Below are positions 8,479-25,695 of a stretch of DNA of 32,279 nt, piece after piece. Source of the stretch: Siminovitchia fordii DSM 16014 = CIP 108821 (GTDB lineage: Bacteria; Bacillota; Bacilli; Bacillales; Bacillaceae_C); contig NZ_KB894717.1 of NCBI RefSeq assembly GCF_000374565.1, positions 1 through 32,279 of the forward strand, in the 5' to 3' direction. The notes under the pieces were generated by a model. The model worked only from the letters and a program-made list of their open reading frames with translations. It was not told where the DNA came from and did not search any database. Each line of letters starts with the position of its first letter. Position 1 is the first letter of the stretch. Both the position numbers and the translations under genes were made by a program.

Positions 8479-8847
8479 ATGAAGTTGGCTGTAGGCCATT
8501 TTAAACAGGAGCTGATAAAAGATTACAATGAGCTCAACTTGCGCATGTTCGATATCGGCGTCAAAAGTCAAAAGGTTGAAATTGTCGGGGATAAGATATT
8601 AATCTTCGCCTATCATAAGAGAATTCCTTCTCTTAGACATTTGGACGAGTTTAATCGCTTAGTCACCCGCATGACAGATGTCGCTATTATTGACAGCCAT
8701 AAAGAGAATTTCAAGGAATTGGTTGAGACTAAGTACGGGATGCATGTCATTTCCATTTTAAAGGACTACGATCCGTTTATGGAACTTGCAGTAACCATTA
8801 TCGTACTTGATCAGGATGTCAGCCAATATATATCCAATCAACTATAA
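8479..8847 (+). CDS. DUF2294 (YbcI-like) protein
   Basis: A soluble 122-residue protein with the charged N-terminal pattern and the ISILKDYDPFMELAVTI region typical of DUF2294. The function of the family is unknown. ATG 8479 has AGAAGGTGA at the right distance; the frame upstream of it (from 8443) lacks a ribosome binding site. It is followed by a structured terminator region and seems to be transcribed alone. Confidence 0.8.
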   Translation: MKLAVGHFKQELIKDYNELNLRMFDIGVKSQKVEIVGDKILIFAYHKRIPSLRHLDEFNRLVTRMTDVAIIDSHKENFKELVETKYGMHVISILKDYDPFMELAVTIIVLDQDVSQYISNQL

Positions 8848-8880: not shown

Positions 8881-8939
8881 AAAACCGTCAGTGCTAATCT
8901 GCAGATATATATCTGTCAGGTTTGTGCTGGCGTTTTTTT
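8881..8939 (+). terminator. Terminator after the DUF2294 gene
   Basis: An outer imperfect stem (AAAAC-CGTCAG with CTGGCGTTTT) encloses the perfect inner palindrome CAGATATATATCTG and ends in a T7 run. It stops 31 bases before the next start codon, so it could also act as an attenuator in the leader of the next operon. Confidence 0.6.
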
Positions 8940-8969
8940 ATATTAAGAAAACAAAAGGGAGGAAAATTC

Positions 8970-9992: not shown

Positions 9993-10009
9993 TAAAGGAG
10001 TGAATGAAA

Positions 10010-11134
10010 ATGGGTGAAATTAAGCCTCTTGTAAAAGATGAAGTTTCTCTGGAGGAAGCTGTCAGCCAACCGGTTCTCCGGAAAAAGAAATGGGAAAAAA
10101 TTGAATTGGTGGGCCTCGCCTTAATTATTGCCTCATTGTCAGTCATGATGATCTCCCCAGGTACATTAGCAGGTTTGTTTACCGCGATGGTTGATAAGGT
10201 GTTCCCTGTTGTTGTCGAGGTGTTTTTAACAGGAACAGTCGGAGTCACAATCATTGTCAGTGTTGTTATTGGCAGGACGCTGGAAAGACTCGGATTTACG
10301 GATGCTCTGATCCGAGTCTTTCTTCCAGTAACTAAGCTGCTGAAAATAAATTCAGCTGTCCTGATTCCGAGCATTTATAATATCCTTGGGGATATTAACG
10401 CAGCCGGAAAAATCTCAGGACCCATACTTGTCCGGTCAGGAGCCACAAAGTCGGAGCAAAAGATGGCGGTTGCTACAATGGTGCAGTCGCAACAGTCATT
10501 TTCCACTTTCATGTTGGGAATGCTCGCATTGACCGCTGTCGGTGTCAATGCATTTGTAGTTGTCATAGTAGCTGTATTCTTGCCTGTGGTTGTCGCACCG
10601 TTTATTTTGTCAAAGACGATTTATCGTGATACAAAAGCAGTCGATATTGAAAACTTGCCGAAGTTCACTCCCACAACAGGGCCTTTGCCCACTCTGTTCA
10701 ACGCTGCCCGTGAAGGAGCGGAATTGGTATTTCTTTTGATCATCCCTGCAGTGGCTGCAGTCTTCGCGGTGATTGGTGTCTTGGAATACATTGGTGTATG
10801 GAAGTCGATTGAATCTGTGTTATCTGCAGGTTTGCTTGCGCTGAATATTGATCCGGAAACAGGTATCCTTTCCATACTGGCAACACCCACATTAGCAATG
10901 GCTCAATTGTCGGAGACTGCTGCCACAATGGATCCGCGTCTAGTCATAGGATCCTTTGTTCTGGCATCCTCAGGTTTGCCGCTGTCATCGATCTTTGGCC
11001 AAATCCCTGTTATTTGGGCGGCAAATTCTGATCTAAACGAAAGGGAAGCCATGACGGCTGCCGTCATTGGAATTGTCATGCGTCTGATCACAGCATTCTT
11101 GGTTGTATATTTTTTAACGCCCATATTAGTTTGA
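10010..11134 (+). CDS. Nucleoside-recognition (GATE) domain membrane protein
   Basis: A 374-residue membrane protein with a charged N-terminal tail of about 35 residues and eight to ten helices. The segments LIPSIYNILGDINAAGKISGP and FVLASSGLPLSSIFGQIP are typical of the GATE-type core shared by nucleoside transporters and spore maturation proteins. It probably moves a small molecule across the membrane; the substrate is unknown. I chose the second ATG (10010), nine bases after AAAGGAG, over ATG 10004, which is only three bases away. It forms a two-gene operon with the NIF3-like gene and converges on the gene at 11140, with five bases between the stops. Confidence 0.85.
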   Translation: MGEIKPLVKDEVSLEEAVSQPVLRKKKWEKIELVGLALIIASLSVMMISPGTLAGLFTAMVDKVFPVVVEVFLTGTVGVTIIVSVVIGRTLERLGFTDALIRVFLPVTKLLKINSAVLIPSIYNILGDINAAGKISGPILVRSGATKSEQKMAVATMVQSQQSFSTFMLGMLALTAVGVNAFVVVIVAVFLPVVVAPFILSKTIYRDTKAVDIENLPKFTPTTGPLPTLFNAAREGAELVFLLIIPAVAAVFAVIGVLEYIGVWKSIESVLSAGLLALNIDPETGILSILATPTLAMAQLSETAATMDPRLVIGSFVLASSGLPLSSIFGQIPVIWAANSDLNEREAMTAAVIGIVMRLITAFLVVYFLTPILV

Positions 11135-12360: not shown

Positions 12361-12405
12361 TTGATATTTACAGAAAAATCAAGTATAATTTGTATATAGT
12401 ATACC
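12361..12405 (+). promoter_or_regulatory. gntR promoter with operator 1
   Basis: TTGATA (12361-12366) and TATAAT (12384-12389) are 17 bases apart. Immediately downstream, TGTATATAGTATACC (12391-12405), on its complement GGTATACTATATACA, covers the expected start point and matches the operator seen at seven other promoters in this window. This position suggests that the regulator represses its own gene. Confidence 0.75.
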
Positions 12406-12445
12406 GGAATAAAATCAATAAACTGCAAAGAGGGGAGGATCCATT

Positions 12446-13126
12446 TTGTCGAGCTGGACAGAGGAAAGTCTACTCTCCATTCGCGAGAGAGCGTACAGAC
12501 ATCTTAAAAACCTGATTTTGGAAGGAGAATTAAAAACGGGAGATCGCTTGATTGAGCGTGAGCTTGCAGAGAAGTTGAAAATAAGCCGGACGCCAATCCG
12601 CGAAGCCCTGTTTCGACTAGAATCCCAAGGTTTTGTGAAAACCATCCCGAGAAAAGGGGTAATGGTTGCAGATATATCTGAAAAAGAAATTTTAGAAACG
12701 TTCACTATCCTGTCTTCTTTGGAGTCTTTGGCGGCTAAACTTGCGGCTCAAAAGCTGGATGAAGCGACGGAAAAGAAATTTAAAGAATGTATTGAAAGAG
12801 TGGAAGAGCAGCTGAAAAGTCCAGATGTTAATTACGCTGAGTTGCATAGCGAATTGAATTATCTCCTCTACAGTGCTGCCAAAAATTCCAAGCTATATGA
12901 AATATTGGGAGGACTGACAGATTACATCCGTGCCTTTGCAAAGACAGGCTTTAAGAAGGAAGGCTGGCCAAAGCAATCGATGGAAGAACACTTGGCCATC
13001 ATGAGAGCGATCTGCAACAAGGAAGTGGAGATGGCGGAGTATTTAACCAAAATCCATATTGAAAACTCCAAAAATGCGTATATAGAAGCAACCACTGGTA
13101 AAAAAGAGATTTCAACAAGCATATAA
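12446..13126 (+). CDS. GntR-family transcriptional regulator, FCD (FadR-type) subfamily
   Basis: A 226-residue DNA-binding regulator. The N-terminal winged helix spans about residues 10-75, with the recognition-helix region LAEKLKISRTPIREALFRLE and the wing IPRKGVMV. The C-terminal two thirds form an all-helical FCD ligand domain with the histidines expected for metal-assisted acid binding (HSELNYLLY, EEHLAIMRA, HIENSK). The start is TTG 12446, after GGGGAGGA. FCD regulators commonly bind TGGTATACCA-like palindromes, which is what recurs across the next 10 kb, so this is the likely regulator of that region. Its ligand is unknown. Confidence 0.93.
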   Translation: MSSWTEESLLSIRERAYRHLKNLILEGELKTGDRLIERELAEKLKISRTPIREALFRLESQGFVKTIPRKGVMVADISEKEILETFTILSSLESLAAKLAAQKLDEATEKKFKECIERVEEQLKSPDVNYAELHSELNYLLYSAAKNSKLYEILGGLTDYIRAFAKTGFKKEGWPKQSMEEHLAIMRAICNKEVEMAEYLTKIHIENSKNAYIEATTGKKEISTSI

Positions 13127-13722: not shown

Positions 13723-13750
13723 TTGTTTAAAGTGGTATACAAAATATAAT
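13723..13750 (+). promoter_or_regulatory. Promoter of permease A with operator 2
   Basis: TTGTTT (13723-13728) and TATAAT (13745-13750) are 16 bases apart. GGTATACAAAATATA (13734-13748) fills the spacer: the left half-site is perfect, the right half degenerate. A bound regulator would block polymerase directly. Confidence 0.65.
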
Positions 13751-13780: not shown

Positions 13781-13892
13781 TTATTTTTACCGCTTGATTA
13801 AAACGCTTACAAAGGGGGGTATCCAGTCAAGGAGGAGGTGCCTACAGCCTAGGGAGATCAAAATTCGAATCAAACTTGGAGGGGTAAAGTTA

Positions 13893-15341
13893 ATGGAAAT
13901 CACATTAGCTCATTGGCTCTATTTGTTTGTAACAATCATTGTAATCGGAACAATGCTTTTCAGGCGCGGTGTTGTATTACCAATTATCATTGGAACTTTT
14001 CTTGTGGCTGCCGTATATAAGGGGGATGTCGTCAGTGGATTCCAAGCTGTGTTTAATGCAAATCTAGTGGCGGCAAAGGAACTTTTCAGCATTTTTCTCA
14101 TTATATCTCTCATGATTGCTTTGCTAAATGCATTAAAAGGGCTGGGGGCAGATCAACGGCTGATTATGCCGGTCCAAAAAATAATGGTTAACGGTCATGT
14201 ATCTTTTATCATACTGTTCGCAACCACCTACATTATTTCGCTGTTTTTTTGGCCGACTCCTGCAGTACCGCTTATTTGCGCTTTATTGGTTCCAGCAGCA
14301 GTGCGTGCAGGTGTTCCAGTTATGTCAGCAGCCATGGTTGTTGTCATATCAGGGCAGGGGATGGCATTGTCTTCAGACTATGTTATTCAAGTGGCTCCCG
14401 TCATTAGTGCAACAGCGGCAGGGGTAGACAAGGCATTAATTACCGATAAACTAATGGTTCTTTCCCTTATTACAGGATTCTGTGCACTTTCGATCGTTTA
14501 CTTATCTGCAAGAAAAGTGATGTCAAAGAAAATTGCTCAATCGGAAGAAAACATCAAGATGCAAGAAAATTTTTTCGAAGACGCAGGGGAGTTGGCTGCT
14601 ACAGTTGAAGATGACGCAGACATTGTTCAAAGGAAAGAAACATGGGGAAAAGTATTTGCAGTCATCGTGCCATTATCCATGCTTGCGGTCATGATCTACA
14701 TGTTCCAATTCAAAATAACTGGAGGGTCCGGTTTTGAGGGAACGGATGGCGCTGCATTTGTTGGAGGAGTAGCAACAATTCTGCTGGTACTGGCAACCAT
14801 CGCATTAAATCGTATCCATGCCCTTGATCAAATTAGTGAACATATAACGGATGGGTTTGTCTTCGCTTTTAAGGCAATGGCTCCCGTTATTCCGATTGCC
14901 GGATTCTTTTTTATGGGGAGCAGTGAATTTACACCAGCCATTCTGTCATTGAGCGAGGGTGCCGCAACACCAGCATTCCTGTTTGATACGATTCAAGCTG
15001 GACAAGTCTACATACCGCAAAACTCAATCTTTGCGGGGTACGGGATTCTTTTAATTGGAATCATCACAGGTTTAGATGGATCAGGCTTTTCAGGACTTCC
15101 ATTAACAGGTGCTTTATCAGGGGCATTGTCTTCCGGTGCAAACATCGATGCGTCCACTATGGCGGCCATCGGCCAGATGGGAGCTATTTGGACAGGAGGC
15201 GGAACAATCATTGCTTGGTCATCATTGGTGGCGGTTGCCGGATTCTTAAAAATATCACCGATCGAGTTGGCGCGCAAAAACTTCATACCTGTCATGATCA
15301 GTCTGTTGATCGCTACAACTGTCGCTATTTTAATATGGTAA
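13893..15341 (+). CDS. Permease A, ion-transporter-superfamily type, substrate unknown
   Basis: A 482-residue membrane protein with about 12-14 hydrophobic segments in two similar halves, split by a soluble, acidic loop near residues 215-255. The organisation, and half-membrane segments such as FFWPTPAVPLICALLVPAA and DGSGFSGLPLTGALSGALSS, resemble carboxylate permeases of the ion transporter superfamily. I cannot assign a subfamily or substrate. ATG 13893 has GGAGGGG eight bases upstream; an in-frame TTG at 13773 lies inside the leader hairpin and is rejected. Transcribed alone from a promoter with operator 2, so it probably imports the compound handled by the GntR-linked module. Confidence 0.8.
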   Translation: MEITLAHWLYLFVTIIVIGTMLFRRGVVLPIIIGTFLVAAVYKGDVVSGFQAVFNANLVAAKELFSIFLIISLMIALLNALKGLGADQRLIMPVQKIMVNGHVSFIILFATTYIISLFFWPTPAVPLICALLVPAAVRAGVPVMSAAMVVVISGQGMALSSDYVIQVAPVISATAAGVDKALITDKLMVLSLITGFCALSIVYLSARKVMSKKIAQSEENIKMQENFFEDAGELAATVEDDADIVQRKETWGKVFAVIVPLSMLAVMIYMFQFKITGGSGFEGTDGAAFVGGVATILLVLATIALNRIHALDQISEHITDGFVFAFKAMAPVIPIAGFFFMGSSEFTPAILSLSEGAATPAFLFDTIQAGQVYIPQNSIFAGYGILLIGIITGLDGSGFSGLPLTGALSGALSSGANIDASTMAAIGQMGAIWTGGGTIIAWSSLVAVAGFLKISPIELARKNFIPVMISLLIATTVAILIW

Positions 15342-15611: not shown

Positions 15612-16988
15612 CTAGGTTAACCATTGCAACGATAACAAATAGATGATGGTGCAGCTGATATACACTAAAGTGAATGGCATGTTCCAGTTGGACACTTTAT
15701 AAGAGCTTTGCTTCACGATGTTGGACATCAGACCGATGGTCGCATTATAAGGCCCGATTAAAAATGCAGCAGAGGCTCCTGAAAGCATGGCGACTGTCAA
15801 TATATGGGCAGAGATGTGCGTGATATCCGGATTCAAGGTTTCGGCCATCAGAGCCAGCGTAACGGCGGGATGAAATCCCAGGAATGCAAAGGCCAATGGA
15901 ATTAGAGGCAGCATCATCAAAAAGAAATTTGCTCCAATTGCTCCAATCAAATCGATAATCCATACATTTACGACTTCATTGCTGTGTGATGTTTTTATGG
16001 CGGAGATAAAAAATCCTGCCGATAAAAATAAGAAAAATTGATCCTTCATTTTATTGGAAAAGGATTGAAAATGCTTTTGGAACGCTACTCCGAATTCTCT
16101 TCCCTTTTTTAAAAAAAGAGCCCAAGCAAACGAGAATGGAATAACTAATAGTGAGACAAGTGTTAAAAATGAATATGGGAGCCGCGATTCAGCAACGGAT
16201 ACGATTACTATGAAGATGATAATGGCTAGCAATATCTGAAAAATTCTTCTTGGATTACTGGGCTCTTTTTCAATTGTTGTGGAAGCCACTTCGTCTGCCG
16301 CAAGGGAAATTTGAAGACGTTTCTTCGAAATACGTGATCCCAGATACCAGTCAAGTGCTAAACCAAATATGCTGAGTGGAATAACATAAGGTAAAATCGA
16401 AACCCAGCTGACCCCAGTTACTCCGATGACTATTCCGACGATAGGTGTGACCGGTGCCCAAACGAGCGGCATGGCAAACCCCCTAGTAATAGCTCGGCTC
16501 ATGAAACGTTCGGAATGCTGGACTGGAAAACCCTCCAAAGCCGGCTTAATAGAATAGTAAGTCATCGGCAAAGTCGCCAGATTCATAAAGATACTGAAAA
16601 AGTAGGAAATTCCTGAAGTCAGCATGTATAAATGTCTGTTCGATTTGATTTTGTTATGTAGGATTGCCTGGATATCAAAGCTGTACTTTCCAAGAGTGAT
16701 GGGAATCCCCAGGATCGGGACTAGCGTGAACATCATAAGCAGGTCCAACATGGGACCGAAGGATAGAATATACTGCGGCCAGCTTACTCCGCTGTTCAAA
16801 AGGAGGAGTACTCCGGCCGCCAAAAACACGCTTCCCAAAACTTGAACGAACCTTGATACTTTAAAAAATGTACAAAGGACAATGATCATACACAGGACTG
16901 AAATCATGGCGAGCAACCCCGGTGATGGGACCAGGATGGCAAGAAAATATAAAATGAATACAAACAAAAATAAAGAATTCAACATCAT
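15612..16988 (-). CDS. Permease B, ion-transporter-superfamily type, substrate unknown
   Basis: A 458-residue membrane protein with about 11-12 hydrophobic segments and short loops. The paired motifs FAMPLVWAPVTPIVGIVIG and MLSGASAAFLIGPYNATIGL, one in each half, look like the re-entrant substrate and ion sites of ion-transporter-superfamily carriers. It is not similar enough to permease A to be a recent duplicate. AAGGAGG precedes two adjacent ATG codons (16988 and 16985). Its promoter overlaps operator 3 on the opposite strand from the rest, so the same regulator probably controls it. It may be a second importer or an exporter of a pathway product. Confidence 0.8.
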   Translation of the reverse strand: MMLNSLFLFVFILYFLAILVPSPGLLAMISVLCMIIVLCTFFKVSRFVQVLGSVFLAAGVLLLLNSGVSWPQYILSFGPMLDLLMMFTLVPILGIPITLGKYSFDIQAILHNKIKSNRHLYMLTSGISYFFSIFMNLATLPMTYYSIKPALEGFPVQHSERFMSRAITRGFAMPLVWAPVTPIVGIVIGVTGVSWVSILPYVIPLSIFGLALDWYLGSRISKKRLQISLAADEVASTTIEKEPSNPRRIFQILLAIIIFIVIVSVAESRLPYSFLTLVSLLVIPFSFAWALFLKKGREFGVAFQKHFQSFSNKMKDQFFLFLSAGFFISAIKTSHSNEVVNVWIIDLIGAIGANFFLMMLPLIPLAFAFLGFHPAVTLALMAETLNPDITHISAHILTVAMLSGASAAFLIGPYNATIGLMSNIVKQSSYKVSNWNMPFTLVYISCTIIYLLSLQWLT

Positions 16989-17083: not shown

Positions 17084-17127
17084 TTTTGGTATATTGTATA
17101 CCAAAATAAAATAATACCTGATATAAT
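17084..17127 (+). promoter_or_regulatory. Promoter of the 28-codon ORF with operator 4
   Basis: TTTTGGTATA-TTG-TATACCAAAA (17084-17106) is a perfect palindrome with ten-base arms, the most symmetrical site in the window. An extended -10, TGATATAAT (17119-17127), follows with the operator over its -35 region. The start codon is 33 bases after the -10. Confidence 0.7.
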
Positions 17128-17159: not shown

Positions 17160-17246
17160 ATGATGAAATTTTTGTTTGATTCCGGGAAGGTGCAAGAGAG
17201 GGCAGACAAAAAGCTGGAACGTTTGAGAAAGATGATCAAGTTTTAA
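17160..17246 (+). CDS. 28-residue peptide with its own operator, RBS and terminator
   Basis: ATG 17160 opens a 28-codon frame for a highly charged, basic, probably helical peptide (begins MMKFLFDSGK, ends LRKMIKF) with no signal or membrane segment. AAGGAGAG lies seven bases upstream, operator 4 and an extended -10 lie just before that, and a strong terminator begins ten bases after the stop, so it looks like a complete single-gene transcript. I recognise no family. It could instead be the coding part of a small regulatory RNA. Its control by the same operator as the surrounding enzymes is the strongest sign that it is functional. Confidence 0.6.
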   Translation: MMKFLFDSGKVQERADKKLERLRKMIKF

Positions 17247-17306: not shown

Positions 17307-17639
17307 CTAAGCCGATACGTTTTCAAGCTTAACAAGCTTCGAATCAGCGGATTTCTCCGATTCGTTTCGATCGACGATTTCATATAATTCTTCCCGGACT
17401 TCTTCGATTGTGTCGAAGTGCTCGAAAAACTTGACCCTAATATGGTTTACATACTCTCTATCGTGATATTCCTCGGACATTTTTATTTTTGTTTTTTCGT
17501 CCAATACTTTGGCAATCGTATATTTTGCCCGCAGTTTGTCAAAAAAATAGAAGTTGTACGTTTCCACAATCTCTAAACCCTCATTGTCAAGATCCGTCTG
17601 AAAAGTATCCTTGTTTGTCAATAAAATGTACTTGGCCAC
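17307..17639 (-). CDS. Unknown 110-residue protein of the GntR-linked module
   Basis: A soluble, highly charged protein that I cannot assign to a family. The N-terminal half looks beta-rich (KYILLTNKDTFQTD, IVETYNFYFFDKLRAKYTI) and the C-terminal half helical and acidic (HFDTIEEVREELYEIVDR). There is no cysteine, signal peptide or membrane segment. Start is GTG 17639, nine bases after AAAGGAG. It is transcribed alone, leftward, from a region containing operator 5. The shared operator implies a role in the same process as the ferredoxin and oxidase genes, perhaps as a small effector or coupling subunit, but nothing in the sequence shows this. Confidence 0.75.
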   Translation of the reverse strand: MAKYILLTNKDTFQTDLDNEGLEIVETYNFYFFDKLRAKYTIAKVLDEKTKIKMSEEYHDREYVNHIRVKFFEHFDTIEEVREELYEIVDRNESEKSADSKLVKLENVSA

Positions 17640-17724
17640 TCTTTACCACTCCTTTAATTAATGGTTGTAATCGCTTACTCAAAAGTTAAAGCAACAGGGA
17701 AAGTTTGATCACACCTCCTAATTT

Positions 17725-17739
17725 GGAATATTGTATACC
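17725..17739 (-). promoter_or_regulatory. Operator 5, upstream of the 110-residue gene
   Basis: GGAATATTGTATACC, on the coding strand GGTATACAATATTCC, differs from the perfect palindrome by one base. Its centre supplies a TACAAT that could be the -10 of the leftward promoter; the -35 is weak. Start codon 86 bases downstream. Confidence 0.65.
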
Positions 17740-17832
17740 AACCATGTGATTAATAGTTTATTACATGGCCCATAAAAATTCAACTATATATTTTGAATAT
17801 TTCATTTAAATAAAATCATTTGTATATAGCGC

Positions 17833-17920: not shown

Positions 17921-17954
17921 TTGCCTTTCCGTATTTATTGGTATACAATATACC
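17921..17954 (+). promoter_or_regulatory. Promoter of the ferredoxin-creatininase operon with operator 6
   Basis: TTGCCT (17921-17926) and TACAAT (17944-17949) are 17 bases apart. GGTATACAATATACC (17940-17954), a perfect GGTATA-N3-TATACC site, contains the -10. This is the clearest case of operator and promoter overlapping. Confidence 0.8.
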
Positions 17955-17992
17955 CAAGTTAAAATTTCAATAAAAAGGGGGGATATTTTCGA

Positions 17993-18325
17993 ATGCCAAA
18001 GGTGACACTTCACGTGGATGGGACAATTGTTGAGCAGGAAGTGAAAGAAAATGCCAATTTGGTAGTCTTGGCCGGAATTAAAGAATTTCCGAAGTTAAAA
18101 TTTGGGTGCGGAATGGGGAAATGTACAAGGTGTACATGCCGCGTAATTAATGGGTCTGAAGGACTTGACCCGCCGAATTGGAAGGAACAAAATATGCTGG
18201 GGGATAAGCTCAAAGAGGGTTACCGGCTGACTTGTCAGCTATACATCCAGCAGGATATAGAAATTTCACAGGAAAATATCAAAATAAAGCCTCCTAGAAA
18301 ACGCAGTACCATGATGACCAGGTAA
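17993..18325 (+). CDS. [2Fe-2S] ferredoxin 1
   Basis: A 110-residue plant/adrenodoxin-fold electron carrier. The cluster ligands C39-x4-C44-x2-C47 and C81 are all present (GCGMGKCTRC and YRLTCQ), with an extra cysteine at 49 and a basic C-terminal tail. AAGGGGGGA precedes ATG 17993. It is the first gene of an operon with the creatininase-family gene 36 bases downstream. It presumably delivers electrons to the oxidase of the same module. It differs from ferredoxin 2 (22291) in its cluster loop and tail, so the two are probably not interchangeable. Confidence 0.9.
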   Translation: MPKVTLHVDGTIVEQEVKENANLVVLAGIKEFPKLKFGCGMGKCTRCTCRVINGSEGLDPPNWKEQNMLGDKLKEGYRLTCQLYIQQDIEISQENIKIKPPRKRSTMMTR

Positions 18326-18361
18326 ATTGAAAGCGGTGACAAGGTACAGAGGGTGAAGTAG

Positions 18362-19135
18362 ATGAATTGTTATGAACTGGCAAAGATGACATGGGAAGAA
18401 GTCGAAGCCTCCTTGGAAAAAGTGAGACTGGCAATCATCCCTGTCGGGGCGCATGAACAGCATGGCCCGCATATGGTAGAGAGCTGCGATGCTGTTTTAG
18501 CAGAAAAGATGGCCGTCAAACTCGGCGAGCGGTTATTCCCGTACGTGCTTATCACACCGACGGTCAACATGGGTGTTTCATCACATCACATGAATTTTCC
18601 GGGAACAATTTCCCTTAAACCGACCACACTGATTGCTCTGCTGAAGGACATAGTTTCATCATTGAAGTGTCATGGCATTCAGCAGTTTTTATTTCTCAAT
18701 TCACATGGGGGCAACCAATCAACACTGGATGTAGCCGTCAATTTGATCACCGAAGAGTTGGAAGTAGAGGTATTTTATGCAAAAACGACTGCTTCAGCCA
18801 AAAAGGCGATAGTCAAAAATGTAAAGTCAACCTTATTTGGTCACAGTTGTGAAAGGGAAGTATCAGAGGCATTTTACTTGGCGCCCGAATTGATTCGTAC
18901 TGAAAAGCTTCAAAAAGGAGAAATACAGGAGACGGGAAGATGGAAACATTTAAGGCCGGGATGCGCGCTGCAAGGTTTTTATCACTACGAAGAAATGACC
19001 GCAAACGGATGTATTGGAGATGCCTCGCAGGCTGAATTCGAAATTGGCAGGCAAATAGTTGAGGAAGCACTTGATAACTTATCAAGAGAACTGATAAAAG
19101 TTTTAAAAATAAAAGAAGACGCCATACTACATTAA
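18362..19135 (+). CDS. Creatininase-family metal-dependent amidohydrolase
   Basis: A 257-residue cytosolic hydrolase of the creatininase family, whose members open cyclic amides or remove formyl groups and also include MftE-type peptidases. The metal motif VGAHEQHGPH supplies E32 and H34; D43, H115 (in NSHGGN) and E164 (in GHSCEREVS) complete the expected set, and SSHHMNFPGTISL is the usual core. The common GHAGE motif is altered to GHSCE but keeps the glutamate. It is co-transcribed with ferredoxin 1. A role in hydrolysing an amide or lactam made by the oxidase is inference. Confidence 0.9.
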   Translation: MNCYELAKMTWEEVEASLEKVRLAIIPVGAHEQHGPHMVESCDAVLAEKMAVKLGERLFPYVLITPTVNMGVSSHHMNFPGTISLKPTTLIALLKDIVSSLKCHGIQQFLFLNSHGGNQSTLDVAVNLITEELEVEVFYAKTTASAKKAIVKNVKSTLFGHSCEREVSEAFYLAPELIRTEKLQKGEIQETGRWKHLRPGCALQGFYHYEEMTANGCIGDASQAEFEIGRQIVEEALDNLSRELIKVLKIKEDAILH

Positions 19136-19196
19136 AGACCAGTACTCATACACCTTTAAAAGCTTAGTTTACAAGTTGTTAATCTATGAACCCCCT

Positions 19197-19237
19197 TTAA
19201 GTTATATTTTTAACTTAAATGGTATACAAAATATCAA
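19197..19237 (+). promoter_or_regulatory. Promoter region of the oxidase operon with operator 7
   Basis: GGTATACAAAATATC (19221-19235) repeats the half-degenerate form of operator 2. An 8-bp hairpin, TTAAGTTA-N6-TAACTTAA (19197-19218), lies just upstream. The promoter is weak by eye: TTTAAC (19209-19214), 17 bases, TATCAA (19232-19237). Confidence 0.5.
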
Positions 19238-19264
19238 ATACCAAATTTAAGGAGGAATTTTAAA

Positions 19265-19993
19265 ATGACAGAACTATTATCAAAAGAGGCCTTTCGTAAA
19301 GAATTGGAGATTGCAATCGCAGGAAATCACAGCCAGAAGGCTCCATTTACAGTAGCTTGGGCAGAAGGAAAGCTTGAAAGAAAACACTTTGCAAGATGGG
19401 CGGAAAACCATTACCACTATGTTGGACCATTTGCGGACTACCTCGCGTACATCTATCACAACACTCCAATGGATGAAAAATTCGTAAGTGCGAAGGATTT
19501 CACATTGCAAAACATGTACGAAGAAGAAATTGCAGGTGACCGCCATACTGACTTGTTGATCCGCTTTGCCGAAGCTTGCGGCTCATCCGCAGAAAGAGTG
19601 ATGGATCCAAACAATATGGCTATTACTACACTTGGCCTTCAAAGCTGGTGCTATGCTGTAGCGGCACGGGAAAACTTCGTAGTGGCAACAGCTGCACTTG
19701 TTGTCGGTCTTGAATCCCAAGTGCCTGATATCTATAGGAAACAGACACCTGCATTAAGGGAAAAATACGGCTTCACAGATGAAGAGATCGAATTTTTCGA
19801 CTTGCACATTGTATCTGACGAAATCCATGGTGAGCGCGGATACAAAATTGTGTTGGAACATGCAGATACTCCTGAATTACAGCAGCGCTGCCTGGAGATT
19901 GTACGAACAGGTGCGAAAATGCGCCGCATGTATATGGATGGCTTATGGAGAGAATATATCGAACAGGATCTTGGAGAACTGATTAAGTCTTAA
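19265..19993 (+). CDS. Haem-oxygenase-like diiron oxidase (HDO; CADD/PqqC-related)
   Basis: A 242-residue all-helical protein of the TenA/PqqC fold. Unlike TenA or cofactor-free PqqC it carries the full ligand set of the haem-oxygenase-like diiron oxidases: E87 and H94 (YEEEIAGDRH), E150 (GLESQVPDI), and H181, D185 and H188 (LHIVSDEIH). The ESQ-P motif and the H-x3-D-x2-H spacing are those of CADD, which uses a dimetal centre and oxygen in p-aminobenzoate synthesis. The family also includes UndA, SznF and BesC. AGGAGG precedes ATG 19265. It heads an operon with an aldehyde dehydrogenase and a GlcG/HbpS protein, which points to a catabolic oxidation rather than a cofactor pathway. Substrate unknown. 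Confidence 0.85.
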   Translation: MTELLSKEAFRKELEIAIAGNHSQKAPFTVAWAEGKLERKHFARWAENHYHYVGPFADYLAYIYHNTPMDEKFVSAKDFTLQNMYEEEIAGDRHTDLLIRFAEACGSSAERVMDPNNMAITTLGLQSWCYAVAARENFVVATAALVVGLESQVPDIYRKQTPALREKYGFTDEEIEFFDLHIVSDEIHGERGYKIVLEHADTPELQQRCLEIVRTGAKMRRMYMDGLWREYIEQDLGELIKS

Positions 19994-20021
19994 ATAATCT
20001 TGTAAATTGCCAAGTTTGTTT

Positions 20022-20142
20022 AGGTCAAGCCCAGGCGAGTTCCATCGCGGGGACCTGAATCATTAACGGCGGAACTCCTATTTGAAAATCCTGTCAGACG
20101 GACCGCTGTTACATACAAATCTATGAAATGATGGCGGTCCGT
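20022..20142 (+). other. Structured intergenic RNA region before the aldehyde dehydrogenase gene
   Basis: The 183-base gap between oxidase and dehydrogenase genes holds AGGTC (20022-20026) with GACCT (20052-20056), the enclosed stem GCGA-N6-TCGC (20035-20048), a competing perfect pairing GAGTTCC (20037-20043) with GGAACTC (20071-20077), and ACGGACCGC (20098-20106) with GCGGTCCGT (20134-20142). The two central pairings exclude each other, as in attenuators or riboswitches. I recognise no known class. Confidence 0.45.
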
Positions 20143-20177
20143 TTCATGGGGAAAAATATAGGAAAAGGTGATGAATA

Positions 20178-21644
20178 TTGCTGACTAAAACGAAGGTCGA
20201 AACGTTTAAAAATCTGATAGATGGCAATTGGAGTGAGTCACAAAGCGGCCAGACATTCTCAAGTATCAATCCGGCAAATAAGGAAGAAATTGTAGGAGCT
20301 TTCCAGGCCTCCAATGAAGAAGATGTCCGCCAAGCAATCGAAGCTGCTTCCAGAGCTTTTCCGCAATGGGCTGCTACGGCTCCATCCAAGCGGGCCGCCA
20401 TCTTAAATAAAGCGGCAGACATTTTGGAGCAGAGTGTTGATACATTGGCTGAAGAATTGACAAGGGAAGAAGGAAAGCATGTGAATGACGCTAGAAATGA
20501 AGTGCTAAGATCTGCTCAAACTCTTCGTTTCTATGCAGTAGAAGGACAGAGTTTTACCGGGGAAACATTTCCGCATGACGATTCGAACATGAAGGTATCG
20601 ACTGAGCGTGAACCACTCGGAGTGATTGCCGTCATTACACCTTGGAATTTTCCAATTTCAATTCCAGCAAGAAAGATTGCACCGGCTTTGGTTACTGGAA
20701 ACACAGTGGTATTCAAGCCCTCATCAGACACCCCACTCATTGCCTTCAGGCTGGTTGAAGCGCTGCAGGATGCAGGGATACCAAAAGGAGTCATCAACTT
20801 TGTGACCGGAAAATCATCCGACATCGGTGATCTGTTAGTGACTCATGAAGCTATCAAGGCCATCACTTTTACCGGATCGACAACAGCGGGAGAGGTTATT
20901 CATAGCAAAACCTCCTTTACCACGAGGACGCAAATGGAGCTCGGTGGAAAAAATCCCATCATTATTATGGATGACGCGGATCTCGACTTGGCGGCAACAC
21001 TGACGGTCAATGGAGCTTTCTCCCTGACTGGGCAGGCATGTACCGGAACAAGCCGTGTCATTGTCCTTCAAAGTGTCAAAGACGCTTACATCAATAAATT
21101 GATTGAAAAAACGAAGAATCTTAAAGTTGGCAATGGCTTCGAAGAAGGAGTCAAAATCGGGCCGGTTGCCAATCATCGCCAGTTGAAAAACATTCTTAAC
21201 TATATTGACATCGGTGTTAAGGAAGGCGCGAATCTCGTGTATGGTGGCAATCAGATCACTAATGGCAAGTATGCTCAGGGTTATTATGTGGAGCCTACTA
21301 TTTTTACAGATGTACAGCCAGATATGCGCATTGCACAGGAAGAGATTTTCGGACCGGTCGTCGCCGTCATTGAAGTGTCTACATATAAGGAAGCTATAAA
21401 AGTTGCGAACGGAGTAGACTATGGGCTGTCCGCCTCAATTGTGACGAACAACCTCAAGGTTGCAAACGATTTCACAAAGGATATTCAGGCGGGTACTGTA
21501 AAAGTGAACAGGACGACAACAGGAAACCTGATGAATGCTCCGTTTGGCGGGTTCAAAAATTCCAGTACAGCAACATTCCGCGAATCCGGAAGAGTCGGAC
21601 TGGAATTCTTCACGCAGGTAAAAACAGTCTATGTGGGTTATTAA
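20178..21644 (+). CDS. Aldehyde dehydrogenase, 2-oxoglutarate-semialdehyde-dehydrogenase-like
   Basis: A 488-residue NAD(P)-dependent dehydrogenase oxidising an aldehyde or semialdehyde to the acid. N157 (TPWNFPI), K180 (VFKPSSDTP), E254 (MELGGKNP) and the catalytic C288 ([14 protein letters not shown]) are all present. The overall pattern is closest to the 2-oxoglutarate (2,5-dioxovalerate) semialdehyde dehydrogenase group, such as B. subtilis YcbD, but the C-terminal [17 protein letters not shown] departs from the usual KGSS form, so substrate preference may differ. Start is TTG 20178 after AAAGGTGA; an ATG at 20171 is out of frame. It follows the oxidase gene and fits as a late step of the pathway. 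Confidence 0.92.
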
Positions 21645-21664
21645 ATAAGGAGGAGAGACAGACT

Positions 21665-22168
21665 ATGCCGGTTACAGAGAAGAAAATTTTTAAAACAGCC
21701 ATTAAGCTTGAGTTGGAAGCAGCGAAGCTGATGATTGAGGCTGCGAAACAGGAATCGGAAAAAATCAATGTGGCGGAAACAATCGCGATCGTGGATGATG
21801 GCGGGAACCTGATCGCTCTTGAAAGAATGAATGGAGCGCGCATCACGGGGCCGGAAATTGCGATCGCAAAAGCCTATACGGCTGCCGGCCATAAGCGTTC
21901 TACCCACTTATTCAACACAGAGCCGAATGGACCAGCGCTTCCAGGAAATGAAGCATTTGGAATCCAGCTAATGATTCCAGGAAAGTTTGCCATCTTCGTC
22001 GGTGGTTTCCCAATCGTAGTTAATGGCGAAGTAGTAGGAGGAATCGGAATCAGCGGTGGAAATGGCGAACAGGATACTGCTGTCGGAACTGCGGCATTGG
22101 AAGCATTGAAAAAACATGTAGAAAAAGACGGCATGACTGTGGAAACAAAGGCAGATATCAAGAAATAA
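21665..22168 (+). CDS. GlcG/HbpS-family protein
   Basis: A 167-residue single-domain protein of the GlcG/HbpS (DUF336) family, related to the PduO C-terminal domain; some members bind haem or corrinoid. The family signature GGIGISGGNGEQDTAV is near residue 125, and AIVDDGGNLIALERM is the usual N-terminal strand pair. There is no signal peptide, so it acts in the cytosol. GGAGGAG precedes ATG 21665, 20 bases after the aldehyde dehydrogenase stop, so the two are co-transcribed. Such proteins often sit in catabolic operons without a proven role. Confidence 0.9.
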   Translation: MPVTEKKIFKTAIKLELEAAKLMIEAAKQESEKINVAETIAIVDDGGNLIALERMNGARITGPEIAIAKAYTAAGHKRSTHLFNTEPNGPALPGNEAFGIQLMIPGKFAIFVGGFPIVVNGEVVGGIGISGGNGEQDTAVGTAALEALKKHVEKDGMTVETKADIKK

Positions 22169-22214
22169 ACCCTCGGGAAAATTCATACGAAACTGTTTGA
22201 AAAAATTGCATGGA

Positions 22215-22268
22215 GGGCTCAATGTCAATTGAGCCCCCAAATGACAAATTTTTGGTATACCATATACC
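22215..22268 (+). promoter_or_regulatory. Hairpin followed by operator 8
   Basis: GGGCTCAAT-GTCA-ATTGAGCCC (22215-22236) is a perfect 9-bp stem about 45 bases after the GlcG stop; without a T run it is only a possible terminator. GGTATACCATATACC (22254-22268) is a perfect GGTATA-N3-TATACC site 22 bases before the ferredoxin 2 start. ATGACA (22241-22246) is a weak -35 candidate. Confidence 0.65.
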
Positions 22269-22290
22269 AAGAGTGAGGAGGAGCAAAAAT

Positions 22291-22641
22291 ATGCCTAAAA
22301 TTCATTTCGTCAACAGTGAGAAAACATTTGATGTACCGGAAAACTCCAATGTTCTCAGAATGTCCCTCAGGTATGATGGTGATCTTCCGAACCTTTGCGG
22401 TGGAGGAATTTGTGGAACGTGTGTATTTAAACCAGTGGAGGGAGCAGAACATCTAGATAAGATTACGAAGCAGGAGCAAAGGAAACTAGGGGAAGAATGG
22501 CTTGCAAAGGGATATCGGCTTGGGTGTCAAACGTTTATAAAAGATCAGGACGTATCTGTTGCCTGGGATATGGAAATCACGAAACAGGTGAAAAAACGGA
22601 AGCCGGATAAGCTGGACAGGAAACCTTCTACAGTAAAGTGA
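22291..22641 (+). CDS. [2Fe-2S] ferredoxin 2
   Basis: A 116-residue [2Fe-2S] electron carrier with ligands C36-x4-C41-x2-C44 and C79 (CGGGICGTC and YRLGCQ) and a long, basic, lysine-rich C-terminal tail. ATG 22291 has GAGGAGGAG upstream; the frame before it overlaps operator 8 and is not coding. It is the first gene of the operon that also encodes a [4Fe-4S] ferredoxin and the ferredoxin-NADP reductase, so reduction by that reductase is likely. Confidence 0.9.
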   Translation: MPKIHFVNSEKTFDVPENSNVLRMSLRYDGDLPNLCGGGICGTCVFKPVEGAEHLDKITKQEQRKLGEEWLAKGYRLGCQTFIKDQDVSVAWDMEITKQVKKRKPDKLDRKPSTVK

Positions 22642-22666
22642 TCTGCAAGAATATGGAGGGAGCGCG

Positions 22667-22843
22667 ATGTGGGTCTGTATCGATCATTTAAAAGGAGTAG
22701 TTGAGTTTGCCAAAGCCCCTCATGTCAGCAAGCCGAGATGCCGTATGAAATGTTCCTTTTGTGAAAGGGATGCAATCGTTAAACTGCATTTTGAACGCAG
22801 AATTTGCCATTATGAAGAAAAGGAAAAGGCCGGGGTTAAATAA
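22667..22843 (+). CDS. 58-residue Cys/His-rich small protein
   Basis: A short basic protein with a knuckle-like motif RCRMKCSFCERDA and a later RICHY, which could bind zinc or an iron-sulfur cluster; a further CIDH lies at the N-terminus. GGAGGG stands six bases before ATG 22667, 25 bases after the ferredoxin 2 stop. I know no named family. Its place between two ferredoxin genes suggests a small metal-binding partner of the electron chain. About 100 bases without a gene follow. Confidence 0.7.
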   Translation: MWVCIDHLKGVVEFAKAPHVSKPRCRMKCSFCERDAIVKLHFERRICHYEEKEKAGVK

Positions 22844-22947
22844 ATATGAGGGTTACAGGTGTCATTGCGGGAGGTTTATTTAGCATAATGGCACCTCATT
22901 TCGTAGCCAATCCATTTTTAAATCATTTATATGAGAGGAGACTCATT

Positions 22948-23208
22948 ATGCCTTTATATACGATCGTCAATAGGGATACTTGCATAAGCTGCGGTTCATG
23001 CGGTGACTTGGCACCGGATATCTACGACTACGATGAAGAGGGTCTTGCCTTTGTGATGGCGGATGATAATCGGGGGTGCGTCCAGGTAGAGGAAGACTTT
23101 ATCGAAGATGTTCAGGATGCATTTGAGGAATGTCCCTCCGGTTCCATTCGTATCGCTGAAGAATCCTTTGAGGGTGATCCGGACAAATTCGATAAGGTTA
23201 CATCATAG
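22948..23208 (+). CDS. [4Fe-4S] ferredoxin, Fer-type
   Basis: An 86-residue ferredoxin close to B. subtilis Fer, with cluster ligands C12, C15, C18 (CISCGSC) and C62 (ECPSGSI), the acidic family segment APDIYDYDEEGLAFV and a C-terminal EGDPDKF. The second-cluster cysteines are absent, so one cluster is expected. ATG 22948 has GAGAGGAG seven bases upstream; the frame before it has no ribosome binding site. As it belongs to the regulated operon, it is probably an extra copy dedicated to this pathway, with the housekeeping fer elsewhere. Confidence 0.92.
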   Translation: MPLYTIVNRDTCISCGSCGDLAPDIYDYDEEGLAFVMADDNRGCVQVEEDFIEDVQDAFEECPSGSIRIAEESFEGDPDKFDKVTS

Positions 23209-23220
23209 GGGGCCGCTGGC

Positions 23221-23988
23221 TTGGACATTACCCTTCTCTTGGAATACGTCTGGATATTATTGATTTTAATAGGATTGGAAGGTATTTTGGCGGCGGATAA
23301 CGCAGTTGTGATTGCTGTAATAGTGAAGCACTTACCGAGGGAAAAACAGAAAAAAGCACTTTTTTACGGCTTGTTGGGTGCATTCATATTCCGTTTTGCC
23401 GCGTTGTTTATCATTGTGACATTGGTAAATATTTGGCAGGTGCAAGCGATTGGTTCGTCCTATTTAATATACCTCTGTATCAATCATTTCATAGGTAGAA
23501 CGAAAGAAAAGGCCAATCGGCCAAAGGAGAGAAAAGGCTCTTCGTTTTGGATGACGGTTCTAAAAGTAGAGCTGGCTGATATTGCCTTTGCTTTGGATTC
23601 TATGCTGGCTGCAGTTGCTTTGGCAGTGACCCTGACTCCCCTTGGAAAGTTTTCAGTAGCCGGTATGGACGGAGGACAATTCATTGTCGTATTTGTAGGC
23701 GGTGTCATTGGAATGATCTTGATGCGATTTGCTGCAGTTACATTTGTTCGTTTGCTTCAAAGGTTTCCGATTCTTGAATCTGCGGCATTTCTGCTTGTCG
23801 GTTGGGTAGGTGTAAAGCTGGCGGTACTTACACTCGCACATCCTCGTGTCGCCATATTGGATGTCTATTTTCCAGAGTCATTTGTATGGACGGCTATTTT
23901 TTGGACAGTATTTATGGGGATTATATTTAGCGGGTATTTAGTGGCAAGGAAGCAAAGCCGCGCGGAGGAGAGACAATTTTACGGTTAG
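23221..23988 (+). CDS. TerC-family membrane protein (YceF/YkoY-like)
   Basis: A 255-residue membrane protein with about seven helices. The two acidic family motifs are present: EGILAADNAVV (near residue 20) and VELADIAFALDSMLAAVA (near residue 117). TerC proteins of Bacillus export manganese and help load metal into secreted enzymes. Start is TTG 23221, 12 bases after the ferredoxin stop, with AGGGGGC upstream, so it is co-transcribed with the redox genes. Unlike many relatives, it has no manganese riboswitch ahead of it that I can recognise. Why a metal exporter is needed in this module is open; managing the oxidase metal is one possibility. Confidence 0.9.
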   Translation: MDITLLLEYVWILLILIGLEGILAADNAVVIAVIVKHLPREKQKKALFYGLLGAFIFRFAALFIIVTLVNIWQVQAIGSSYLIYLCINHFIGRTKEKANRPKERKGSSFWMTVLKVELADIAFALDSMLAAVALAVTLTPLGKFSVAGMDGGQFIVVFVGGVIGMILMRFAAVTFVRLLQRFPILESAAFLLVGWVGVKLAVLTLAHPRVAILDVYFPESFVWTAIFWTVFMGIIFSGYLVARKQSRAEERQFYG

Positions 23989-24164
23989 GAAGAGCTTTTC
24001 TTGAAAAATAAGGAGAAGTTTCATGGGCGAATAAGTCATCGACCGTCATGCAACGTAACGGAATAAGCGAAGTGAAAAAAACTGCTTTGTTATTAAAGAA
24101 ACCGAATTGGACGAAGAAAACGAGAAAGAAGAATTACTCTCTAAAAACGGGGGATATTGAAATC

Positions 24165-24626
24165 GTGATTAATGGAAGATTACAAGAGTTGAATATCACA
24201 TTGCCCGAACTACACGATAATGCCATGCCTTATGCATTGGGTGTTGTATCGGGACGAAATGTCATATTATCAGGACAGACCCCACGGGTTAACGGTGAAC
24301 AAAAGTATACCGGAACTTTGGGTACACCTTCGATCAATGTTGAGGAAGCGCAGGATGCAGCCAGGATTTGTGTCATCAATCTACTGGGAGCACTAAAAGA
24401 ACTGGTTGGAGACCTTGATCAAGTCGAGAGAATTGTAAAGATCAACGGCTATGTAGCTTCAACCAATGACTTTACAGAGCATTCGAAAGTGATCAATGCC
24501 GCTTCGGTGTTGTTGAATGATATTTTTAGAGAGGGAAAGAAGCATGCCCGGGTGGCAATCGGACTGGCTTCTTTGCCAGGCGGGGCACCGGTTGAAATCG
24601 AGATGATTGCTGAATTGAAGGCTTAA
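24165..24626 (+). CDS. RidA-family (YjgF/Rid) protein
   Basis: A 153-residue cytosolic protein of the Rid superfamily, whose members hydrolyse reactive imines and enamines. The start region VINGRLQELNITLPE and the segments ILSGQTPRV, DLDQVERIVKINGYV and HARVAIGLASLPGGAPVEIE are typical of the longer subgroup found in catabolic operons. This subgroup often lacks the arginine of true RidA deaminases in its usual context, so activity is uncertain. I chose GTG 24165 after GGGGGAT because upstream codons (from 24048) read as lysine-rich nonsense. It lies 22 bases before the reductase gene and was probably recruited to process an imine formed by the oxidase. Confidence 0.85.
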   Translation: MINGRLQELNITLPELHDNAMPYALGVVSGRNVILSGQTPRVNGEQKYTGTLGTPSINVEEAQDAARICVINLLGALKELVGDLDQVERIVKINGYVASTNDFTEHSKVINAASVLLNDIFREGKKHARVAIGLASLPGGAPVEIEMIAELKA

Positions 24627-24648
24627 CCTTTCTAAAGGAGTGAAATGA

Positions 24649-25695
24649 ATGATCCACGATGAAGAAGTATTTGATCTGACTATTATCGGTGGAGGGCCGG
24701 CGGGGCTTTTCACAGCTTTTTACGCAGGTATGAGACAGATGTCAGTCAAAATCATTGAGAGTTTGCCTCAGTTGGGTGGACAGTTGGCAGCTCTTTATCC
24801 TGAAAAAAATATATATGATATTGCGGGATTTCCAAAAGTGAGTGCGCAGGATCTGATTGACAATCTGTACGAGCAAATGTATCAATTTAAACCTGTTATT
24901 TGCTTGGGGCAGTCAGTCGAACAGGTCAAAAAACTGTCTGATGAAACATTCAGAATCAGTACGAACAAAGAGGTCCATCATACGAAAACAATCATTATTA
25001 CAGCAGGAAACGGTGCCTTTAAGCCAAGGAAGCTGCAGTTGGCAGAATCCGAAAAGTATGAAGGGGAAAATCTTCACTATTTTATAAAAGATATGAACCA
25101 ATTTGCCGGCCGGCGGGTTATTTTGTTTGGGGGAGGAGACTCAGCGGTTGATTGGTCATTGATGCTTGAGCCTATTGCTGACAGTGTAACTATTGTACAT
25201 AGGAGAGAAAAATTCCGGGCTCACGAATACAGTGTAGAGCAGCTCCGAAATTCAAAGGTGGAAATTCGGACGCCGTACGTTCCGGTGGAACTAATCGGCG
25301 AGAGTAGAGTTGAGCAGGTGGTCCTAGAAGAAATAGGGAGTGACCGTAAGGAGGTAGTCGAAGTTGATGATGTTATCGTTAATTACGGCTTTGTTTCTTC
25401 TCTCGGCCCTATCAAGGACTGGGGTTTAGATATTGAAAAAAATTCAATCGTAGTCAATTCAAAAATGGAAACAAATATTAAAGGCATCTATGCAGTCGGC
25501 GATATCTGTACGTACGAAGGAAAAATAAAATTAATAACCACCGGTTTCGGAGAGGCACCAGTCGCAGTAAGCAATGCCAAAATGCACATAGATCCAAAAG
25601 CCAGACTTCAACCGCAGCACAGTACCTCCATCCTGGGGGGATCACCAGAAAAAAAGCTTCGGACAAAAAAAGAGAAGAAGGCGATTCATACTTAA
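24649..25695 (+). CDS. yumC: Ferredoxin-NADP(+) reductase, YumC type
   Basis: A 348-residue flavoprotein passing electrons from NADPH to ferredoxin. The FAD motif GGGPAG is at residues 14-19, [17 protein letters not shown] follows, the NADP motif GGGDSAVD is at 161-168 with HRREKFR at 184-190, and the C-terminal FAD site is AVGDI. The CxxC of thioredoxin reductases is missing, as in the YumC class. It is near-colinear with B. subtilis YumC but has a lysine-rich extension after HSTS. AAAGGAG precedes ATG 24649 by eight bases. It closes the ferredoxin operon, so it supplies the electron chain of the module. Confidence 0.95.

Follow-up and report, generated by a model that had tools for sequence, protein, structure and literature searches.

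The 32,279-nt stretch of Siminovitchia fordii DSM 16014 analysed here (contig NZ_KB894717.1, positions 1 to 32,279; hereafter the window) carries a group of genes arranged around one encoding a haem-oxygenase-like dimetal oxidase (HDO). On balance this group is best read as a locally regulated catabolic module, in which the HDO would act as a multicomponent oxygenase with a dedicated electron chain in the degradation of a small nitrogen-containing carboxylic acid. The module is apparent in its gene content, in the conservation of the partner genes, in an intact set of dimetal ligands, in the predicted fold of the HDO, and in an operator shared by the genes; an electron route, a pathway order and a type of substrate are proposed on this basis. 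A sequence-only reading of the same DNA had placed an oxidative catabolic system at positions 17993..25695. The genes it listed are indeed there, with families backed by Pfam or NCBIfam, and the set looks catabolic and not like a cofactor pathway, but the interval was drawn too short: two permeases, a 110-residue and a 28-residue protein, the AspDH or OCD-family gene and an operon with a NIF3-like gene, all operator-marked or conserved, lie outside it. The module spans at least positions 8358 to 25695 (Table 1).

The 242-residue protein encoded at 19265 has Haem_oxygenas_2 (PF14518) as its top Pfam match, with 116.9 bits. The six dimetal ligands assigned to it earlier, E87, H94, E150, H181, D185 and H188, stand exactly at these positions and are unchanged in all 81 homologues from the 80 loci described below (73 distinct sequences; the alignment has 83 rows when the window and L001, its own copy, are counted). 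Three histidines and three carboxylates are what the HDO superfamily requires. An AlphaFold2 model built with 27 sequences (pLDDT 88.3, pTM 0.86) predicts the seven-helix haem-oxygenase-like fold, and the top Foldseek matches of this model among solved structures are CADD (E 2.6e-07, 23% identity) and PqqC, followed by UndA, HrmI, BesC and FlcD, among others. At the level of sequence the protein is confirmed as an HDO whose dimetal site is complete, and bound metal and O2 chemistry would be expected of it.

Several narrower identities were considered and set aside. The TenA-type reading was demoted, as TENA_THI-4 (PF03070) scores 36.8 bits (cut-off 22), far below Haem_oxygenas_2; PqqC was rejected at 40.4 bits for TIGR02111 (cut-off 240), and membership of the ferritin-like multicomponent monooxygenases in view of the predicted haem-oxygenase-like fold. 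The nearest NCBIfam model is that of CADD, TIGR04305, which the protein matches at 90.3 bits (cut-off 200). In CADD, according to the available text of PMC11965152, Tyr27 is sacrificed and Lys152 donates the amine. The HDO residue aligned to the former (29) is Thr in 68, Ser in 12 and Ala in one of the 81 homologues, and that aligned to the latter (160) is Gln in 81/81; with both positions replaced and the model score under its cut-off, a p-aminobenzoate synthase identity was rejected, as the earlier reading had anticipated. With CADD rejected, TenA demoted and the neighbours conserved (below), neither outcome named earlier as refuting the catabolic reading was observed. The protein is best read as representing a distinct subfamily of HDOs.

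To judge by its sequences, this subfamily is tight and common to Firmicutes and Burkholderiales. Among 249 Bacillales genomes 17 (12/106 genera) encode the HDO at 80-100% identity, and among 398 Bacillota genomes the source genome alone matched at E<=1e-30. The 399 Burkholderiales genomes gave 22 matches at E<=1e-20, ten of them at 68-72% and twelve at 28-33%, and the 388 Pseudomonadota genomes gave five, one at 46% and four at 69-72%, three of which overlap with the Burkholderiales sample; all six plasmid records with a match fall at 69-71%. Around the 46% homologue (G1176, L123) most of the module is absent. One of the ten Burkholderiales genomes at 68-72% (G581) also has a 36% paralogue (L094, 9014-9700, minus strand), which no partner gene adjoins except an MFS match. 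The locus of Cupriavidus basilensis KF708 (L073) contains two HDO copies, at 5900-6694 (minus strand) and 9938-10732 (plus strand), one adjoining the genes for aldehyde dehydrogenase (ALDH) and GlcG, the other those for the ferredoxins.

The locus counts rest on the best 80 of 464 stretches of the genome collection encoding HDO relatives (L002-L081), a sample skewed to close relatives and Bacillaceae and comprising 71 Firmicutes and nine Burkholderiales loci; taxa follow the record titles, except that L028, labelled Chryseobacterium, has the Bacillaceae gene order and was placed among the Firmicutes. No gene was allowed to satisfy two queries, and the absences are upper bounds because several loci are incomplete. 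Across these 80 loci and two phyla the partners of the HDO are conserved. HDO, ALDH and GlcG are encoded in 71/71 Firmicutes and 9/9 Burkholderiales loci, permease 1 and a GntR-family regulator each in 70/71 and 9/9, and two separate [2Fe-2S] ferredoxins (Fdx1 and Fdx2) in 76/80; two of the four other loci are short, and L069 and L071 are not. Found only in Firmicutes (0/9 Burkholderiales loci each) are the creatininase-type hydrolase (71/71), permease 2 (68/71), ChrA with ChrB (65/71), aspartate dehydrogenase (AspDH, 52/71), RidA (34/71), an F420-oxidoreductase-like protein (33/71), ferredoxin-NADP reductase (FNR, 11/71), a 4Fe-4S ferredoxin (10/71), the permease encoded at 10004 (8/71), NIF3 (7/71) and TerC (4/71). 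Conversely, an OCD-family enzyme and a BenC-like reductase (9/9 each) and an amidase (6/9) occur in 0/71 Firmicutes loci. In a larger set of 20 Burkholderiales loci (the nine, two plasmid records and nine fetched genomes, near-duplicates kept), HDO and two ferredoxins occur in 20, GlcG and the 110-residue family in 19, GntR in 18, ALDH, the reductase and permease 1 in 17 each, OCD in 15, a TauE-like protein in 11, the amidase in seven and an alpha/beta hydrolase in two. Cupriavidus metallidurans CH34 encodes the HDO, Fdx1, the 110-residue protein, OCD, ALDH, GlcG, the reductase and permease 1 on NC_007974.2.

These counts refine the list of parts proposed earlier. Of its three ferredoxins two are nearly constant and the 4Fe-4S protein is optional, as are RidA and FNR. 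The permease counted within the original interval is a TerC/YkoY-family metal transporter, optional and perhaps a mere passenger, and the likely substrate permeases are permeases 1 and 2, outside that interval. The protein encoded at 24649 we take to be a ferredoxin-NADP reductase; its best NCBIfam model is thioredoxin reductase (178.6 bits, cut-off 343). The Burkholderiales reductase has BenC as its best model (217 bits, cut-off 430), followed, among oxygenase reductases, by AntC and MmoC, scores to be expected of a partner of an oxygenase. Directly 3' of GlcG in the HDO operon, a ChrB/ChrA-like transporter pair is encoded at L003:13032-14179 and in 64 more Firmicutes loci; it is absent from the window, L002 and L070.

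The shared operator, TGGTATA-N3-TATACCA, was found by a palindrome scan upstream of module genes in the window and in loci L002-L068. At <=3 mismatches the window contains ten matches, whereas 100 shuffles average 1.03 and none of them reaches ten; eight of the matches stand directly upstream of module genes, and those at 11276 and 28181 are weak. The weak site at 11276-11292 falls within a 152-aa frame (11140-11598, minus strand), relatives of which recur in seven loci. In the whole genome there are four places with <=1 mismatch, all within the window, and 27 with <=2 mismatches (seven in the window) against 23 for the reversed pattern, so that no member outside the window stands out. The 71 Firmicutes loci contain 363 sites at <=2 mismatches and 137 at <=1 mismatch, against 19 and 1, respectively, for the reversed control. 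By gene, with the control in brackets, sites accompany Fdx2 in 61/68 (1), the 110-residue protein in 60/68 (0), HDO in 57/71 (2), permease 2 in 46/68 (1), AspDH in 45/52 (0), creatininase in 42/71 (0), Fdx1 in 41/69 (0), permease 1 in 22/70 (0), GntR in 21/70 (3) and RidA in 3/34 (0) of the Firmicutes loci. ALDH, GlcG, ChrB and ChrA have 0-1 sites each, which fits a single HDO transcript, and the F420-oxidoreductase-like gene (0/33) and NIF3 (1/7) obtain no support for membership from these loci. The start of Fdx2 was shifted from 22210 to 22291, an ATG 3' of a perfect operator and the likely start.

As the operator pattern was partly derived from the window, the independent test is that of the 20 Burkholderiales loci, which played no part in its discovery. 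They contain 37 sites at <=3 mismatches, against 3 in the control. At <=4 mismatches, sites (control) are found at HDO in 16/20 (3), permease 1 in 16/17 (6), amidase in 7/7 (3), the TauE-like gene in 8/11 (3), GntR in 7/18 (1), OCD in 4/15 (1), Fdx1 in 4/20 (3), ALDH in 2/17 (0) and GlcG in 1/19 (6), and there are none at the Fdx2, 110-residue and reductase genes; at this looser threshold the single genes are weaker evidence than the site total. The earlier suggestion of one regulator is borne out as far as a single operator is concerned, and the GntR protein would presumably be its reader. The operator also adds two unclassified permeases, the NIF3-like operon and the 110- and 28-residue proteins to the module, and the regulon would be expected to respond to the substrate or to its product.

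Neither permease has a meaningful family match in Pfam or NCBIfam, and the labels GntP and ArsB were dropped as wrong. In a Burkholderiales sample permease 1 occurs in 5/300 genomes, every one HDO-positive. Deducing the substrate from permease 1 was abandoned: around 15 HDO-less Bacillales its homologues sit in unrelated contexts (stretches of <=16 kb, among the matches listed). A homologue on an Arthrobacter plasmid (39%) adjoins genes for a luciferase-like monooxygenase, a flavin reductase, an amidase, an ALDH and a Rid protein, a neighbourhood that may hint, indirectly, at the same oxidation logic. The 110-residue protein, encoded in 68/71 Firmicutes and 9/9 Burkholderiales loci, has no family match and no solved structure matches it at E<=0.001; of all the parts it is the strongest candidate for a coupling or effector role. 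The unannotated 28-residue frame has homologues in 48/80 loci, Firmicutes only, with the stop at codon 29 in 46/48 and one codon earlier in two. An operator lies within 120 nt in 43/48, a ribosome-site-like string is present in 33/48, and the gene is divergent from permease 2 (<600 nt) in 44/48. Among 49 sequences the pairwise differences number 8842 at the first codon position, 6143 at the second and 17001 at the third, and the frame appears to encode a genuine small protein linked to permease 2. The terminator-like hairpin 3' of it (17264-17293) is weak on its own, because the terminator scan gave 22 against 16.5 in shuffles.

Table 1. Genes and operator sites of the HDO module in the window
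Feature	Position	Strand	Remarks
Operator-like site, 2 mismatches	8358..8374	+	upstream of MpsC-like/NIF3/permease genes
Small protein weakly like MpsC	8443..8847	+	21.1 bits, cut-off 23
NIF3/DUF34-like protein, possible metal-dependent hydrolase	8922..9992	+	7/71 Firmicutes loci
Membrane protein weakly like Gate domain	10004..11134	+	22.8 bits, cut-off 29.6; 8/71 Firmicutes loci
Operator-like site, 2 mismatches	12390..12406	+	upstream of GntR gene
GntR/FCD-family regulator, presumed operator reader	12446..13126	+	
AspDH remnant, 25 codons	13542..13616	-	E 8.8e-4
Operator-like site, 3 mismatches	13733..13749	+	upstream of permease 1
Permease 1	13890..15341	+	no Pfam/NCBIfam family; 79/80 loci
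Permease 2	15612..16988	-	no Pfam/NCBIfam family; 68/71 Firmicutes, 0/9 Burkholderiales loci
Perfect operator	17087..17103	+	between permease 2 and 28-aa gene
Unannotated 28-aa protein	17160..17246	+	homologues in 48/80 loci
110-aa orphan protein	17307..17639	-	68/71 Firmicutes, 9/9 Burkholderiales loci
Operator, 1 mismatch	17724..17740	+	upstream of 110-aa gene
Operator, 1 mismatch	17939..17955	+	upstream of Fdx1
Fdx1, [2Fe-2S] ferredoxin	17993..18325	+	Pfam Fer2
Creatininase-family amidohydrolase	18362..19135	+	Creatininase, 208.8 bits
Operator-like site, 2 mismatches	19220..19236	+	upstream of HDO gene
HDO, 242 aa	19265..19993	+	Pfam, ligand conservation, predicted fold
ALDH	20187..21644	+	Aldedh, 570.9 bits
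GlcG/HbpS-like protein	21665..22168	+	HbpS-like, 123.5 bits
Perfect operator	22253..22269	+	upstream of likely Fdx2 start
Fdx2, [2Fe-2S] ferredoxin	22291..22641	+	Pfam Fer2; probable start
4Fe-4S ferredoxin, single-cluster	22846..23208	+	Fer4_13, 57.2 bits; optional
TerC/YkoY-family metal transporter	23221..23988	+	TIGR03716, 282.9 bits, cut-off 138.5; optional
Rid-family protein (RidA)	24048..24626	+	YjgF_endoribonc, 57.3 bits; optional
FAD/NAD(P) reductase, presumed FNR	24649..25695	+	Pyr_redox_2, 103.7 bits; optional

The AspDH and OCD families include enzymes that reduce amino-acid imines or form them, and together with RidA they lead one to expect an imine step in the pathway. The AspDH of L002 scores 244.1 bits with NF009828 (cut-off 177) and 206.7 with TIGR03855 (predicted NadX; cut-off 206.55), the remaining equivalog models staying under cut-off. 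In sister loci the AspDH gene lies near GntR. In the window a remnant is left, flanked on both sides by DNA shared with B. norwichensis, the stretch with most of the gene being missing; the gene is absent from Siminovitchia terrae (L070) as well. In the nine named Burkholderiales loci an OCD-family enzyme takes the place of AspDH (9/9). For that of L083 a BhcD identity was rejected (113.5 bits, cut-off 500), as were EutC and other OCD identities, no OCD-type NCBIfam model reaching its cut-off. The source genome encodes a second AspDH (38%) at C5:111806, which stands together with an ALDH (L113, G000:C5:104000-120000); its other neighbours we take to be a TPP enzyme, a Rieske-type oxygenase, SDRs and a 2-oxoacid oxidoreductase, which would make this a further cluster combining an oxygenase with ALDH and AspDH. 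Elsewhere in the window, three genes at 459-4527 (minus strand) read like a spore-germination receptor operon.

In the proposed mechanism, electrons would pass from NAD(P)H to a reductase, which resembles thioredoxin reductase in some bacilli and BenC/MmoC in Burkholderiales, then to one or both [2Fe-2S] ferredoxins and on to the dimetal site, where O2 would be activated; with FNR scarce near the Firmicutes HDO genes, a housekeeping enzyme would have to serve as reductase in most of these bacteria. The substrate, a small nitrogen-containing carboxylic acid, would be imported by permease 1, permease 2 or both. An aldehyde product would go to ALDH, an amide product to the creatininase-type hydrolase or, in some Burkholderiales, to the amidase, while RidA would hydrolyse an imine or enamine, or else AspDH or OCD would reduce it; the end product would be an oxo acid or an amino acid that belongs to central metabolism. 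The order suggested earlier, from uptake through oxidation to imine and amide hydrolysis and aldehyde oxidation, is plausible. The opening of an N-heteroaromatic acid is the leading guess for the substrate chemistry: such a carboxylate cut beside its nitrogen would employ every step, ALDH, amide hydrolase and imine enzyme being expected if O2 serves to break a bond next to nitrogen. In schemes that are our own chemistry, pyrrole-2-carboxylate cut at C4-C5, oxidised and deformylated would give aminofumarate/iminosuccinate, the imine of aspartate, and picolinate cut at C5-C6 would give iminoglutarate. In its full form, the idea is that the HDO, with its own ferredoxins and the 110-residue partner, opens the ring of an N-heteroaromatic carboxylate with no oxygenase of the flavin, Rieske or molybdenum type involved, and that Firmicutes and Burkholderiales share the genes as a portable unit marked by the operator; so specified, it is rather unlikely.

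A number of observations weigh against the catabolic module as drawn here. In two Burkholderiales loci (L088 and L093) neither ALDH nor the reductase nor permease 1 is encoded next to the HDO, FNR is near only 11/71 and RidA near only 34/71 of the Firmicutes HDO genes, and AspDH is absent near 19/71 and decayed in the window. ChrAB, near most Firmicutes loci, is without an explanation in the module. Homologues of permease 1 occur in 159/249 Bacillales genomes (E<=1e-20) and are common without an HDO. The nearest models of the ALDH, 2,5-dioxovalerate and alpha-ketoglutaric semialdehyde dehydrogenase (both under cut-off), point to C5 products and AspDH to C4 products, so that no firm choice can be made between pyrrole-2-carboxylate and picolinate. 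Finally, characterised HDOs act mostly on fatty or amino acids, according to the available text of PMC13108848, and the opening of a heteroaromatic ring would be new chemistry for them.

The last point, together with the place of AspDH in the regulon, speaks for another possibility, which we hold to be a minority view but the strongest of the alternatives: the HDO would act on an aliphatic or N-substituted amino acid, C-N or C-C cleavage yielding an aldehyde as one half and an amine or an amino acid, aspartate for instance, as the other. The two halves would be processed further by ALDH and by AspDH or OCD, and the hydrolase would take off an acyl or amide group, yet the presence of that hydrolase in 71/71 Firmicutes loci is not accounted for by the cleavage itself. 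The ChrA/ChrB-like genes of 65/71 Firmicutes loci would be explained if the module desulfonated an organic acid or stripped it of another oxyanion, the aldehyde passing to ALDH while ChrAB or the TauE-like protein exported the anion; the TauE-like protein is present in 11/20 Burkholderiales loci, in eight of them with an operator-like site (control 3). However, the TauE label is our own reading of the sequence, with no NCBIfam family for the two proteins tested, the ChrB-like protein stays under its cut-off (230 bits, cut-off 250), and the amide hydrolase, RidA and AspDH/OCD are left over, which makes desulfonation improbable. Just as improbable is a detoxification system, in which an inhibitory nitrogen compound is oxidised, or haem handled via GlcG/HbpS, and the transporters are exporters; the GlcG/HbpS family in 80/80 loci, the many transporters and ChrAB would agree with it, but ALDH, the hydrolase and AspDH/OCD point to central metabolism, and the recurrent neighbours include no recognisable haem-uptake gene. 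A CADD-like or PqqC-like cofactor enzyme with incidental neighbours is largely refuted and very improbable, for although NCBIfam and the PDB both give CADD as the closest match, the NCBIfam score misses its cut-off, Tyr27 and Lys152 are replaced, and the neighbours are conserved and share an operator.

If the catabolic module is real, the HDO superfamily enters primary catabolism, a naturally coupled multi-turnover HDO is on offer, and a degradation route for a nitrogen-containing acid is exposed. The available text of a 2026 review (PMC13108848) counts only about a dozen functionally validated HDOs, framed as natural-product biosynthesis, and urges ways of finding functions for the remaining ones; the words 'ferredoxin' and 'degradation' do not occur in its main text. 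Among the open-licence PMC papers listed, none was recognised as describing an HDO with dedicated ferredoxins, an orphan partner and an operator in two phyla, nor as an account of the module in work on the opening of rings or on pyridine, dipicolinate and pyrrole-2-carboxylate. Most of the partner families, like the HDO fold, are already known, and it is their combination that appears to be new, along with the operator, the permeases, NIF3-like operon and 110- and 28-residue proteins linked by it, and the AspDH/OCD counterpart.

Among known systems, the self-sacrificing p-aminobenzoate synthases CADD and NePabS (TIGR04305) are nearest in sequence and fold and have the same six-ligand site, but the HDO of the module is without the sacrificed Tyr and the amine-donor Lys, and its operon contains ferredoxins, ALDH and a hydrolase. 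UndA, BesC, HrmI and FlcD are like it in predicted fold, but their roles are biosynthetic and their identity in the Foldseek alignments is 14-19%. Two-component flavin monooxygenases open the ring of pyridine or trigonelline, with ALDH and an amide hydrolase; the module would differ from these in having a dimetal oxygenase for the flavin enzyme. MboA/MboB of mangotoxin biosynthesis pairs an HDO with a flavin/[2Fe-2S] reductase dedicated to it and, in the available text of its authors, is possibly the first case of an HDO characterised along with a redox partner of its own (PMC13185094). It is a precedent for such a partner, predicted here, and in this respect supports the reading of a catabolic module; that system is biosynthetic, however, with a peptide substrate, whereas the module has two separate ferredoxins, a 110-residue orphan and catabolic genes. 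In outline the module also resembles the bacterial multicomponent monooxygenases of methane, toluene and phenol, with an oxygenase, a ferredoxin, a BenC/MmoC-like reductase and a small partner, but the oxygenase of those systems is ferritin-like, a fold unrelated to that of HDOs, and by analogy the HDO of the module may work like a multicomponent monooxygenase without being one.

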